64,000 nt of DNA from Catenulispora sp. MAP5-51 (GTDB lineage Bacteria; Actinomycetota; Actinomycetes; Streptomycetales; Catenulisporaceae): NCBI RefSeq assembly GCF_041261205.1, contig NZ_JBGCCH010000004.1, positions 310,001 through 374,000 on the forward strand, written 5' to 3'. The notes under the pieces were generated by a model. That model worked only from the letters and a program-made list of their open reading frames with translations, was not told the origin of the DNA and ran no database searches. Positions 20,950 to 26,143 of this stretch are shown here, piece by piece; within the stretch, counting starts at the first letter, position 1, and each line of letters starts with the position of its first letter. A program made the position numbers and the translations under genes.

Positions 20950-22212
20950 GTGACAGACATCCTGACCGGCTCCGCGCCCCGCCGCTCGTTGTGGCGGCAC
21001 CGCGATTTCCTGCTCCTGTGGGGCGGGCAGTCGGTCAGCGAGATCGGCAGCGCGATCACCCTGCTGGCGCTGCCGCTGGCCGCCGTGGTGCTGCTGGACG
21101 TGAGCACCTTCCAGGTCGGCCTGCTCACCGCGATGAGCACGCTGCCGTTCCTGCTCGTCGCGCTGCCGGCCGGCGCGATCGTGGACCGGGTGGCCAAGCA
21201 CCGGCTGATGATGTGGTGCGACCTCGGCCGGCTGCTGCTGATGGCCTCGGTGCCGCTGGCCACGCTGCCCGGCCTGCACCTGACCTACCTTCACCTGCTG
21301 ATCGTCGCGCTGCTGGCCGGCGTGCTGACCGTGTTCTTCGACGTCGCCTACCAGAGCTACCTACCGGTGCTGCTGGAGCGGGGCGAGCTGGTCGACGGCA
21401 ACGGAAAGCTCGGGGTCACGCAGTCCTTCGCGCAGTTCGCCGGGCCCTCGCTCGGCGGCGTGCTGGTCGGCGCGCTCGGCGCGGCGCGGGCGCTGGTCGC
21501 CGACGCCGCGAGCTACGGCCTGTCCGCGCTGTCGCTGCTGCTGATCCGGACGCCCGAGCCGCCGCCGCATCCCAGCCACCGGGAACGACGGATCCGGGAC
21601 GACGTCAGGGAAGGCCTGCACTTCGTCGTCAAGCACCCGATCCTGCGCAAGGTCGTCGCCTGCACCGGCACCAGCAACCTGTTCAACTCCATGCTGCTGG
21701 CCGTGGAGATCCCCTTCATGGTCCGCACGCTGCACCTCAAGCCCAGCGGGGTCGGCCTGGTGCTCACGTTGGCCGCGGTCGGCGGGATGGTCGGCGGCCT
21801 GGTCGCCAAGCCGCTGGCCGACCGGTTCGGCAGCGCGCGGATCATCTGGCTGGCCCCGCTGGTGCTGGGGATCCCGGCGTTCCTGGCGCCGCTGGCGACC
21901 CCCGGCTGGGGTGCGCTGTTCTACCCGGCCGGCCTGGCCTTCTTCGGGATGATGGCGGTGGTCTACAACGTCGCCCAGGTCTCCTACCGGCAGACGATCA
22001 CCCCGCACGAGCTGCTCGGCCGGATGAACGCCAGCGTCCGCTTCATCGTCTGGGGGACCATGCCGCTGGGGGCGCTGCTCGGCGGCATCGTGGGTACCTG
22101 GGTCGGGCTGCGGCCCACGCTGTGGATCGCGGTGGTCGGCAGCTATTCGGCGGTGGCCTGGGTGTTCTTCTCGCCGCTGCGCCACATGCGTGATGTGACC
22201 GATCCCGCATGA
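20950..22212 (+). CDS. MFS transporter
   Basis: A 420-residue major facilitator with about 12 hydrophobic segments, related to the enterobactin exporter/DHA3 branch of efflux proteins (N-terminal RDFLLLWGGQSVSEIGSAIT). Motif A-like residues occur in the loop after helix 2 (GAIVDRVAKHR). GTG 20950 follows an AGGCAAGG region. It may export a drug or metabolite; the position between ilvE and cimA does not by itself show amino acid export. The cimA promoter probably lies in its last codons. Confidence 0.85.
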   Translation: MTDILTGSAPRRSLWRHRDFLLLWGGQSVSEIGSAITLLALPLAAVVLLDVSTFQVGLLTAMSTLPFLLVALPAGAIVDRVAKHRLMMWCDLGRLLLMASVPLATLPGLHLTYLHLLIVALLAGVLTVFFDVAYQSYLPVLLERGELVDGNGKLGVTQSFAQFAGPSLGGVLVGALGAARALVADAASYGLSALSLLLIRTPEPPPHPSHRERRIRDDVREGLHFVVKHPILRKVVACTGTSNLFNSMLLAVEIPFMVRTLHLKPSGVGLVLTLAAVGGMVGGLVAKPLADRFGSARIIWLAPLVLGIPAFLAPLATPGWGALFYPAGLAFFGMMAVVYNVAQVSYRQTITPHELLGRMNASVRFIVWGTMPLGALLGGIVGTWVGLRPTLWIAVVGSYSAVAWVFFSPLRHMRDVTDPA

Positions 22213-22259
22213 CGAGACACACTGTCCCAAGGGCTTTCCGGTGTGGCAGTGTTGTAGCC

Positions 22260-22316
22260 ATGCAGCATCAGCCGCAGATTATTACGGCGTGCGCGCCGGC
22301 ACCGGAGCAGCGATAA
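22260..22316 (+). CDS. Putative cimA leader peptide (18 aa, Ile-Ile)
   Basis: ATG 22260 opens MQHQPQIITACAPAPEQR, then TAA. The two adjacent Ile codons (ATT ATT) are rare-type codons here, where Ile is nearly always ATC. The frame sits between a possible promoter (GTGACC 22195-22200, CACACT 22218-22223, 17-bp spacer) and two hairpins, with the T-rich terminator before cimA. This is the arrangement of amino-acid-responsive attenuation. No good ribosome-binding site is seen. Confidence 0.55.
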   Translation: MQHQPQIITACAPAPEQR

Positions 22317-22340
22317 CCCACTGCCCACCGCCAGCGCGCA
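22290..22340 (+). promoter_or_regulatory. Leader hairpin 1 of the cimA attenuator
   Basis: TGCGCGCCGGC (22290-22300) pairs with GCCAGCGCGCA (22330-22340), 10 of 11 positions. Its left arm lies inside the leader-peptide frame just after the Ile codons, as expected for a stem disrupted by a stalled or moving ribosome. Confidence 0.55.
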
Positions 22341-22342
22341 GA

Positions 22343-22378
22343 CCTCTCGTGGATTCCCACGAGGGGCCTTTTTGTTTT
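22343..22378 (+). terminator. cimA attenuator terminator
   Basis: A 10-bp stem (CCTCTCGTGG/CCACGAGGGG, one G-U) with a 4-base loop is followed by CCTTTTTGTTTT. A T tract this long is exceptional in this GC-rich window; the only similar one precedes ilvB. The stem lies upstream of cimA, 54 bp before its start, so it must regulate that gene. Confidence 0.8.
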
Positions 22379-22431: not shown

Positions 22432-24030
22432 ATGTCCGCAAAAGACGACTACGAGTCTTTTCACGTTTACGACACCACCCTGCGCGACGGCAGCCAGCAG
22501 GAGGGCCTGTCCCTCGCCGTCGCCGACAAGCTCGCGATCGCCCGGCACCTGGACGCCCTGGGCGTCGGCTTCATCGAGGGGGGATGGCCCGGCGCCGTCC
22601 CGAAGGACACAGAGTTCTTCCGGCGGGCTCAAACAGAGCTCGACCTGAAGCACGCGCAGCTCGCCGCGTTCGGCAAAACCCGCCGGACGGGCGTGAAGGC
22701 CGCCGACGACCCGCTGGTGGCCGCGCTGCGGGAGTCCGGAGCGCCGATCGTCACGCTGGTGGCCAAAAGCCATGTCCGGCATGTCGAACTGGCGCTCCGG
22801 ACCACCTTGGAGGAGAACCTGGCGATGATCCGGGACACCGTCGAGCACCTGCGTGCCGAGGGGAAGCGGGTGTTCCTGGACGCCGAGCACTTCTTCGACG
22901 GCTACCTGGCCGACCCCGCCTACGCCCTGGAGTGCCTGCGCACCGCCGCCGAGGCCGGCGCGGACGTGTCCGTGCTCTGCGACACCAACGGCGGCATGCT
23001 GCCGGCGCAGCTGGCCGACATCGTGCACGAGGTGCGCCAGGCCTCCGGCACCCGGATCGGCATCCACACCCACGACGACGCCGCCTGCGCGGTGGCCAAC
23101 GCGCTGGCCGCGGTCGACGCCGGCGCCACCCACGTGCAGGGCACGGCCAACGGCTACGGCGAGCGCTCGGGCAACGCGAACCTGTTCAGCGTGGTCGCCA
23201 ACCTGCAGCTCAAGCTGGGCCGGGAGGTGATCCCGGCGGCCGGGCTGGCCGAGATGACCCGGATCGCGCACGCGGTGGCCGAGGTGACCAACCTGGCGCC
23301 GAACCCGCAGGCCCCCTACGTCGGGGTCTCGGCCTTCGCGCACAAGGCCGGGCTGCACGCCTCGGCGGTCCGCGTCGACCCGGACCTGTACCAGCACATC
23401 GACCCGCAGCTGGTCGGCAACGACATGCGGATGCTGGTCTCGGAGATGGCCGGCCGGGCCTCGATCGAGCTCAAGGGCCGCGAGCTGGGCTTCGACCTGT
23501 CCGCCGACCCCGACACGCTGAGCCGGGTGACCAACCGGGTCAAGGAGCTGGAGGCGTGCGGCTACTCCTTCGAGGCCGCCGACGCCAGCTTCGAGCTGCT
23601 GCTGCGCGGGGAGCTGTCCGGCACGCCGGTGCGCTTCTTCGAGGTGCTGTCCTGGCGGACCTTCGCCGACCGGCTCGCCGACGGCGCCGTGGTCAACCAG
23701 GCGACGGTGAAGCTGCGGGTCAAGGACGAGGAGGTGCTGGCCGCCGGCGAGGGCAACGGTCCGGTCAACGCCCTGGACAACGCGCTGCGGGCGGCCCTGG
23801 CCACCGCTTACCCGGCGCTGGCCGGCCTGGAGCTGATGGACTACAAGGTGCGGATCCTCACCGGCGACCACGGCACGGCTTCCCGGACCAGGGTGCTGAT
23901 CACGACGTCCGACGGCGTCGCGGAGTGGTCGACGGTCGGGGTGGACGAGAACGTCATCACCGCCTCCTGGCAGGCACTGGTCGACGCGGTGACCTTCGGT
24001 CTGCTCGCCAAGGGTGAGACAGTGCTCTGA
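22432..24030 (+). CDS. cimA: (R)-citramalate synthase
   Basis: 532 residues of the CimA type, joining pyruvate and acetyl-CoA to citramalate, the threonine-independent route to 2-ketobutyrate and isoleucine. The TIM-barrel start VYDTTLRDGSQQEG, the metal-binding HTHDDAACAVANALAAVDAG and the NGYGERSGNANL segments are typical; a LeuA_dimer regulatory domain occupies about 390-525. The GWPGAVPKD motif and overall length fit CimA and not 2-isopropylmalate synthase (LeuA), but the two are close relatives. It is preceded by an Ile-type attenuator, which agrees with an isoleucine role. Confidence 0.93.
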   Translation: MSAKDDYESFHVYDTTLRDGSQQEGLSLAVADKLAIARHLDALGVGFIEGGWPGAVPKDTEFFRRAQTELDLKHAQLAAFGKTRRTGVKAADDPLVAALRESGAPIVTLVAKSHVRHVELALRTTLEENLAMIRDTVEHLRAEGKRVFLDAEHFFDGYLADPAYALECLRTAAEAGADVSVLCDTNGGMLPAQLADIVHEVRQASGTRIGIHTHDDAACAVANALAAVDAGATHVQGTANGYGERSGNANLFSVVANLQLKLGREVIPAAGLAEMTRIAHAVAEVTNLAPNPQAPYVGVSAFAHKAGLHASAVRVDPDLYQHIDPQLVGNDMRMLVSEMAGRASIELKGRELGFDLSADPDTLSRVTNRVKELEACGYSFEAADASFELLLRGELSGTPVRFFEVLSWRTFADRLADGAVVNQATVKLRVKDEEVLAAGEGNGPVNALDNALRAALATAYPALAGLELMDYKVRILTGDHGTASRTRVLITTSDGVAEWSTVGVDENVITASWQALVDAVTFGLLAKGETVL

Positions 24031-25999: not shown

Positions 26000-26047
26000 A
26001 TGACGACACGACAGTCGATTCTCGTACTTGCCAGGCGCGTGGGCTGA
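26000..26047 (+). CDS. ilvB leader peptide (15 aa)
   Basis: ATG 26000, with AGGAGG upstream, encodes MTTRQSILVLARRVG and stops at TGA 26045. The run Ile-Leu-Val-Leu followed by another Val supplies one codon or more of each branched-chain amino acid, the hallmark of the actinobacterial ilvB attenuator leader. The 3' end of the frame forms one arm of the first hairpin. Confidence 0.88.
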   Translation: MTTRQSILVLARRVG

Positions 26048-26070
26048 GTTTCACAACCAGCCACGCGCCT
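26033..26070 (+). promoter_or_regulatory. Leader hairpin 1 of the ilvB attenuator
   Basis: AGGCGCGTGG (26033-26042) pairs perfectly with CCACGCGCCT (26061-26070). The left arm overlaps the last leader codons, so ribosome position decides whether it forms. Confidence 0.8.
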
Positions 26071-26072
26071 CC

Positions 26073-26105
26073 CCTCGTTGAGCCTTTCGGCTCCGAGGGT
26101 TTTTT
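26073..26105 (+). terminator. ilvB attenuator terminator
   Basis: CCTCG and GAGCC pair with GGCTC and CGAGG around a TTTC loop, with a 2-base TT bulge, and TTTTTT follows. It lies 39 bp before the ilvB start. Confidence 0.85.
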
Positions 26106-26143
26106 GTTGGCCAAGTACGGCAATCTCAAGAAGAGAGACAGTC

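Follow-up and report, generated by a model that had tools for sequence, protein, structure and literature searches.

A candidate ribosome-mediated attenuator with adjacent isoleucine codons upstream of citramalate synthase genes in actinomycetes

Citramalate synthase, encoded by cimA, is the entry enzyme of the threonine-independent isoleucine route. A preliminary description of a locus from Catenulispora sp. MAP5-51 proposed that an isoleucine leader controls this gene, which raises the question whether the short region in front of cimA is an attenuator and, if so, of which type. We studied the region in a stretch of 64,000 nt (the window), which is part of a 10.9 Mb genome, and compared it with cimA loci of other actinomycetes. 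All window features given below lie on the + strand.

The leader region in the window

The gene order in the window is leuB, ilvE, an MFS gene and cimA. The latter (22432–24030) matches the citramalate synthase family TIGR00977 with 634.8 bits (cut-off 450) and is the putatively regulated gene; on the same strand, the MFS gene stops at 22212. Between the two we found an ORF encoding a putative leader peptide of 18 residues, MQHQPQIITACAPAPEQR (22260–22316; all peptides are written up to their stop codon), in which two adjacent isoleucine codons, ATT ATT, occupy positions 22278–22283 as candidate regulatory codons. A first hairpin, subsequently named stem A, begins within the ORF: its 5′ arm TGCGCGCCGGC (22290–22300) starts 6 nt past the Ile codons, with the GCGCG core 7 nt past them, and its 3′ arm GCCAGCGCGCA (22330–22340) lies 2 nt 5′ of the stem of an intrinsic terminator. 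This second hairpin, CCTCTCGTGG-ATTC-CCACGAGGGG, comprises 10 pairs (22343–22366) and is followed by the T-rich tract CCTTTTTGTTTT (22367–22378). The predicted fold of the 219-nt leader region is better than that of 200/200 shuffled sequences (z −4.32). ORF, Ile codons and first hairpin had been placed correctly in the preliminary description; the stem and T tract before cimA were likewise recovered, but the T tract is separated from the cimA ATG (22432) by 53 nt and not by 54 nt as claimed.

Further upstream, at 22211–22228, a GAGAC-N4-TGTC-like sequence precedes the leader, and by eye it recurs at most of the loci that we read in the family of the window. Streptomyces-like loci carry CATCCTGAGAC 5′ of the leader instead (also by eye). 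Both sequences are possible promoter or regulator sites.

Conservation, codon bias and pairing

In order to follow the leader beyond the window, cimA loci were sampled from its genus, family, order and class and from a set of named genomes; the order sample consisted mostly of one genus (g4), which we judged from its leaders and its gene order to be Streptomyces. Of 114 cimA loci, 82 contain a terminator preceded by an ORF with two or more (2–3) adjacent Ile codons, a count that omits the distant outgroups (L143 and above) and one locus at a contig edge (L014). These 82 leaders were collapsed to 69 distinct ones before counting. Among the named carriers are Nonomuraea, Planotetraspora, Kribbella, Kutzneria, Amycolatopsis, Lentzea, Pseudonocardia, Cellulomonas, Cellulosimicrobium, Demequina and Motilibacter. 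Missing conservation in relatives had been named beforehand as grounds for giving up the proposal; the element passed this check, with Ile codons, stem A and terminator found repeatedly in front of cimA across the class.

A covariance model of the cimA leader (R1) yielded a single significant match in its own 10.9 Mb genome, directed to the site before cimA, and the runner-up was the leuS leader with 16.1 bits (E 1.44). R1 matched 216 of 394 class genomes, while cimA itself was detected at E ≤1e-120 in 310 of the 394. In the best 30 of these class matches cimA lies directly 3′ of the leader in 30/30. Of 80 named loci R1 matched 35 at E ≤0.1; for 33 of these the E value was under 1e-13 and the match stood directly before cimA. 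Comparing the lists by eye, we noted six R1-positive genomes without cimA at E ≤1e-120, and at five of these six, where the loci were read, the match precedes ilvB, leuA or leuS.

At the remaining 32 of the 114 loci the search returned no Ile-run ORF with terminator. By eye, the leaders of six of these contain a single Ile codon, as do two further cimA leaders (L253 and L256), and at seven others ilvE seems to run directly into cimA. Two misses contain Ile-Ile, the terminator having been mis-picked, and one is a second cimA paralogue of its genome in which no leader was seen; the first paralogue has one. In two families (f20 and f27), according to the lists inspected by eye, many genomes contain cimA without an R1 match at E ≤0.01, possibly through loss or divergence of the leader. 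Among the Acidimicrobiaceae, locus L163 shows a looser cimA leader, MHAPTSIGIT, and in locus L150 (~840–950) a leader MKNFTPHSAVVVAIG and a terminator stand before an apparent leuB (by eye).

The claim that ATT is rare in this context was borne out: at the 69 loci ATT accounts for 96 of 152 Ile codons in the leader runs, whereas the cimA genes there use it for 15 of their 1119 Ile codons (Fisher p ~5e-87, a statistic that ignores relatedness). At least one ATT codon is present in 67 of the 69 leaders. Downstream of the Ile codons the reading frame is less constrained than the RNA. In Streptomyces-like leaders the stem A sequence GCGCGCCGG translates to ..RRAG.., in the genus of the window to ..CAPA.., and since it is kept although the frame differs, RNA rather than peptide is selected 3′ of the Ile codons.

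Both helices show covariation. In alignment A1, which holds 50 of 70 distinct stretches (a second alignment, A2, holds 30 of 33), 13 of 21 pairs have changed on both sides, 6 of 10 in stem A and 7 of 11 in the terminator, a number reached by 0/500 shuffles. The covariation score is 0.315; shuffled alignments give 0.159, and sliding the partners gives no more than 0.087. Of note, 96.3% of the helix cells are paired, with 95 double-change cells against 24.9 in shuffled alignments. We regard a chance origin as excluded because the element is conserved, as seen from the covariation score and the single significant R1 match in 10.9 Mb. The spacing is tight. Stem A adjoins the terminator within 0–2 nt in all 69 distinct leaders (0 nt in 59, 1 nt in 4 and 2 nt in 6 of the MFE folds), and the last Ile codon is separated from the stem A core by 5 nt in 40/69, 6 nt in 5/69, 7 nt in 11/69 and 8 nt in 13/69, while the span of stem A itself ranges between 23 and 71 nt. 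The terminator 5′ arm GACCTCTCG largely keeps its primary sequence (A1 columns 98–107 and 122), and one U-G pair of the terminator is kept in 38 of the 50 leaders of A1. As judged from the alignment, pairing alone is not enough to explain the near-fixed GACCTCTCG and the retained U-G pair.

The start of the leader is marked by a recurrent motif. In the window the −10-like hexamer CAGTGT (22247–22252), with GTGG before it, is located 7 nt 5′ of the leader start and would predict a leaderless leader mRNA. A [CT]A...T hexamer ending 6–10 nt before an in-frame leader start occurs in 62 of the 69 distinct leaders; when the nearest start only is considered, it is present in 74 of 82 leaders and in 11.5% of shuffles. 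Of the 69 distinct leaders, 3 contain an SD-like 4-mer. The position of the hexamer and the scarcity of SD-like sequences suggest leaderless translation and a transcript start 5′ of the terminator, and the hexamer in 62/69 leaders argues against a transcript that would begin 3′ of the terminator, the other observation named in advance as damaging. Leaderless translation has been reported for other Streptomyces leader peptides in the available portion of PMC8079986.

Related leaders before ilvB, leuS and leuA

A similar order had been described before ilvB in the same window, and we found it there: an ORF encoding MTTRQSILVLARRVG at 26000–26047, followed by stem A and terminator, which the MFE fold separates by 1 nt (26033–26099). 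The cimA model matches this leader weakly (18.0 bits). The sequence GAGGAGGAGGG is located 5′ of it and suggests a Shine-Dalgarno site, unlike in the cimA leader. We then built a second model, R2, from stem A and terminator without the codon run, using 16 cimA and 14 ilvB, leuS or leuA leaders (covariation 0.363). In 12 genomes R2 gave 28 matches at E ≤0.02, namely 11 before cimA, 9 before ilvB, 7 before leuS and 1 before leuA; 6 of the 28 are seeds of R2, and R2 was partly trained on ilvB, leuS and leuA leaders. At the same threshold the genome of the window contains three matches, before cimA, ilvB (window positions 26000–26107) and leuS (E 0.018), and this third copy (L276, G000:C5:213678-213757) encodes MRAVTLLLSSPR.

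The codon runs in these leaders follow the gene. Six readable leuS leaders of seven contain 2–4 consecutive Leu codons, the nine ilvB leaders show runs of Ile, Leu and Val codons, and two leuA leaders (L209 and L214, from two genomes of one genus, f13, g16) encode MTNLLLT and MKHLLLIESARH in the same attenuator design. As the codon runs vary with the gene while the RNA frame stays, sensing of amino acids by the ribosome is supported. With stem A abutting the terminator and the codon run directly 5′ of it, the cimA leader shares the ilvB/leuS design.

The elements described in the available text of PMC1262725 comprise trp, cys, ilvB, leuS, leuA and ileS, and the terms 'cima' and 'citramalate' are absent from that text; a list of eight leader peptides of S. 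lividans in the accessible part of PMC8079986 includes none for cimA. We found no description of a cimA leader in the open-access literature, although a survey from 2010 could contain one. The ilvB leaders, represented by Streptomyces ilvL (MRTRILVLGKRVG), mycobacterial ilvB1 and Corynebacterium ilvB-II, have in common with it a leader ORF whose regulatory codons stand directly 5′ of a stem, the overlap of this stem with the ORF end, and an abutting intrinsic terminator. We draw this likeness from R2 matching both cimA and ilvB leaders, with Mycobacterium and Corynebacterium set beside them by description. The cimA leaders differ in their gene and in Ile codons with strong ATT bias; moreover, published ilvB models, as far as given in the portions available, invoke mutually exclusive or loop-to-terminator antiterminators, of which we saw no sign in the cimA leaders. 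The Streptomyces leuS leader (leuL2, MRAVRLLLSEPR, in the available part of PMC8079986) has the same order and abutting helices, but contains Leu codons, precedes a tRNA synthetase gene and starts its stem with GCCGCGC, whereas the cimA stem has GCGCG. Like the cimA leader, the LEU element before leuA includes a leader peptide, and the gene behind it encodes a paralogous enzyme, isopropylmalate synthase; unlike it, that element is described in the available text of PMC1262725 as a pseudoknot in which the leuA Shine-Dalgarno box takes part. Streptomyces trpL has ribosome-mediated logic, leader peptide and intrinsic terminator in common with the cimA leader.

Mutations in sister elements point in two directions. 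Replacement of LVVI by alanine codons in the mycobacterial ilvB1 leader led to low, inhibitor-independent reporter expression and abolished induction, according to the excerpted PMC13236596, which by analogy is supporting evidence for the mechanism. In the S. coelicolor ilvB leader altering the candidate codons had no effect, as stated in the available text of PMC1262725, and by the same kind of analogy this speaks against it.

Ribosome position and termination

We consider the element to be a ribosome-mediated transcription attenuator in which the supply of charged tRNA-Ile sets the transcription of cimA, at a probability of roughly 0.85. The putatively translated ORF with its Ile run and the terminator between this ORF and cimA are consistent with this assignment. 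Transcription would most likely start at the leader start codon, so that the leader peptide would be made from a leaderless mRNA. With ample isoleucine the ribosome would reach the stop codon and block stem A, the terminator would form and cimA would be off. When isoleucine is short, the ribosome would halt at the first ATT codon and leave stem A free to form; stem A, 0–2 nt 5′ of the terminator, would then most likely prevent full closure of the terminator in the RNA polymerase exit channel, and with the terminator incompletely closed transcription would continue into cimA. The most economical reading with the right sign would be that stem A, once formed and lacking a linker, could not be pulled into the exit channel.

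We modeled the ribosome with an assumed footprint of 28 nt. On the first Ile codon it covers no more than 30% of the stem A 5′ arm in 69/69 leaders, whereas on the stop codon 70% or more of the arm is covered in 62/69; stalled and terminating ribosomes are thus predicted to free different RNA segments, as in a ribosome-mediated attenuator. The 7 leaders that fail at the stop codon are those of the genus of the window, the window included, because the stop codon is farther downstream there. In that genus a ribosome at the stop would presumably fill the 29-nt loop of stem A instead.

How stem A could act was examined together with two pairing alternatives. In a classical trp-type attenuator an antiterminator takes in the terminator 5′ arm, so that the two hairpins are mutually exclusive. 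Leader ORF, codons and terminator would agree with this; in the window a GG:CC extension of stem A permits contact with the terminator, as the GG 5′ of stem A can pair with the CC at the terminator base; and the Streptomyces leuS leader has been classed as a classical attenuator that has both an antiterminator and a terminator hairpin (available text of PMC1262725). We therefore computed pairing of the terminator 5′ arm with the RNA cut directly past this arm and the ribosome placed on a given codon. The positive control consisted of 11 Streptomyces leaders with a Trp run, restricted to loci with TGGTGGTGGAC and a terminator arm that were drawn from sites matching a Trp-leader pattern with 0 or 1 mismatch; a check for a trpE motif 3′ of these leaders found none, and the genes 3′ of 4 of the 11 have anthranilate synthase component I as their best family match, below the cut-off. 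In the Trp-run leaders the arm is on average 0.78 paired at the first Trp codon and 0.38 at the stop, as expected for an antiterminator that sequesters it. In the cimA leaders the mean is 0.14 at the first Ile codon, with 0/69 above 0.5, so no capture by an antiterminator was seen; values of 0.42 at the last Ile codon (above 0.5 in 17/69) and 0.48 at the stop codon (n = 69) were obtained. A trp-type mechanism is accordingly quite improbable here. Folding of whole leaders at equilibrium did not discriminate: in 35 leaders the inner terminator pairs were at ~1.0 in nearly all ribosome states, and the 11 Trp controls gave the same in 4 cases, a shift at the base of the terminator in one (L233), mis-picked terminators in 4 and no terminator in 2. 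Pairing between the stem A loop and the terminator's 3′ shoulder, the model put forward for Corynebacterium ilvB-II, we hold to be unlikely as an antiterminator. The two-helix layout is that of ilvB-II, with P1 spanning the uORF and P2 as terminator (PMC10272879, in the part available), and several loops are C-rich by eye. However, the duplex of loop and terminator 3′ arm has a mean energy of −7.48 kcal/mol, equal to that of shuffled loops (−7.56 kcal/mol; median p 0.5, n 68), and a stem A span as low as 23 nt leaves little room in some loops, so that the pairing of the P1 loop known from ilvB-II was not recovered in the cimA leaders. Two short motifs had also been tried as general antiterminators, GGTCTGC (the complement of GCAGACC) in the Streptosporangium-like ORF and CTCTCG in the Streptomyces-like ORF, and were dropped because other families lack them (by eye).

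With the arm free at the first Ile codon and loop pairing no better than in shuffles, stem A is left as the conserved alternative to termination, and as no pairing antiterminator was found, antitermination would have to come from a steric effect. The computed pairing also counts against this explanation: base pairing taken by itself leaves the terminator 5′ arm most open when the ribosome is stalled at Ile. That result would suit the opposite sign, in which stem A is a pause hairpin or an aid that stacks on the terminator and the timing of the ribosome regulates. Abutting helices could indeed stack, and the near-fixed terminator 5′ arm exceeds what pairing alone explains. However, stem A is in opposite states with the ribosome at the first Ile codon and at the stop codon, and if it aided termination cimA would be off during isoleucine starvation; for this reason we give this alternative a small chance. 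It is hardly credible that the hairpin is a mere 3′ terminator of the MFS gene, which ends at 22212 on the same strand, with a fortuitous ORF behind it, as ORF, codons and stem A are conserved and the element stands before cimA at named loci from many genera, where the sequence further upstream is, by eye, not the same. Direct sensing of isoleucine or its tRNA by a T-box or small-molecule riboswitch is very improbable as well. T-boxes are known from some actinobacterial ileS genes (available text of PMC1262725), but 0 Rfam families reach their gathering score in the window, and the conserved core consists of an ORF and two simple hairpins. In 12 further loci searched at E ≤1 the sole overlap with a leader was Atu_C8 in L170 (25.2 bits, gathering score 50, E 0.61), which is most likely a chance match.

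The cimA element, which is widely conserved, most likely works like an attenuator and belongs with the actinomycete ilvB and leuS leaders; the overlapping antiterminator of the trp type is lacking. Control of cimA by an isoleucine leader, as originally proposed, is supported by conservation and by codon runs that vary with the gene, in an arrangement that differs from trp. We suggest, tentatively and with some doubt, that the branched-chain genes cimA, ilvB, leuS and sometimes leuA of actinomycetes share a codon-programmed attenuator in which antiterminator and terminator do not compete for bases, and stem A, freed by the stalled ribosome, blocks closure of the terminator by purely spatial means. 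The cimA leader is predicted to be a direct control point for the isoleucine supply of actinomycetes, and cimA, ilvB and leuS are placed under one RNA design with exchanged codons. This raises the physical question whether two abutting hairpins can act as antiterminator and terminator without having bases in common. If true, the spatial block would be a switching principle unlike that of trp-type attenuators, and it might be relevant to the unclear results for Streptomyces ilvB.
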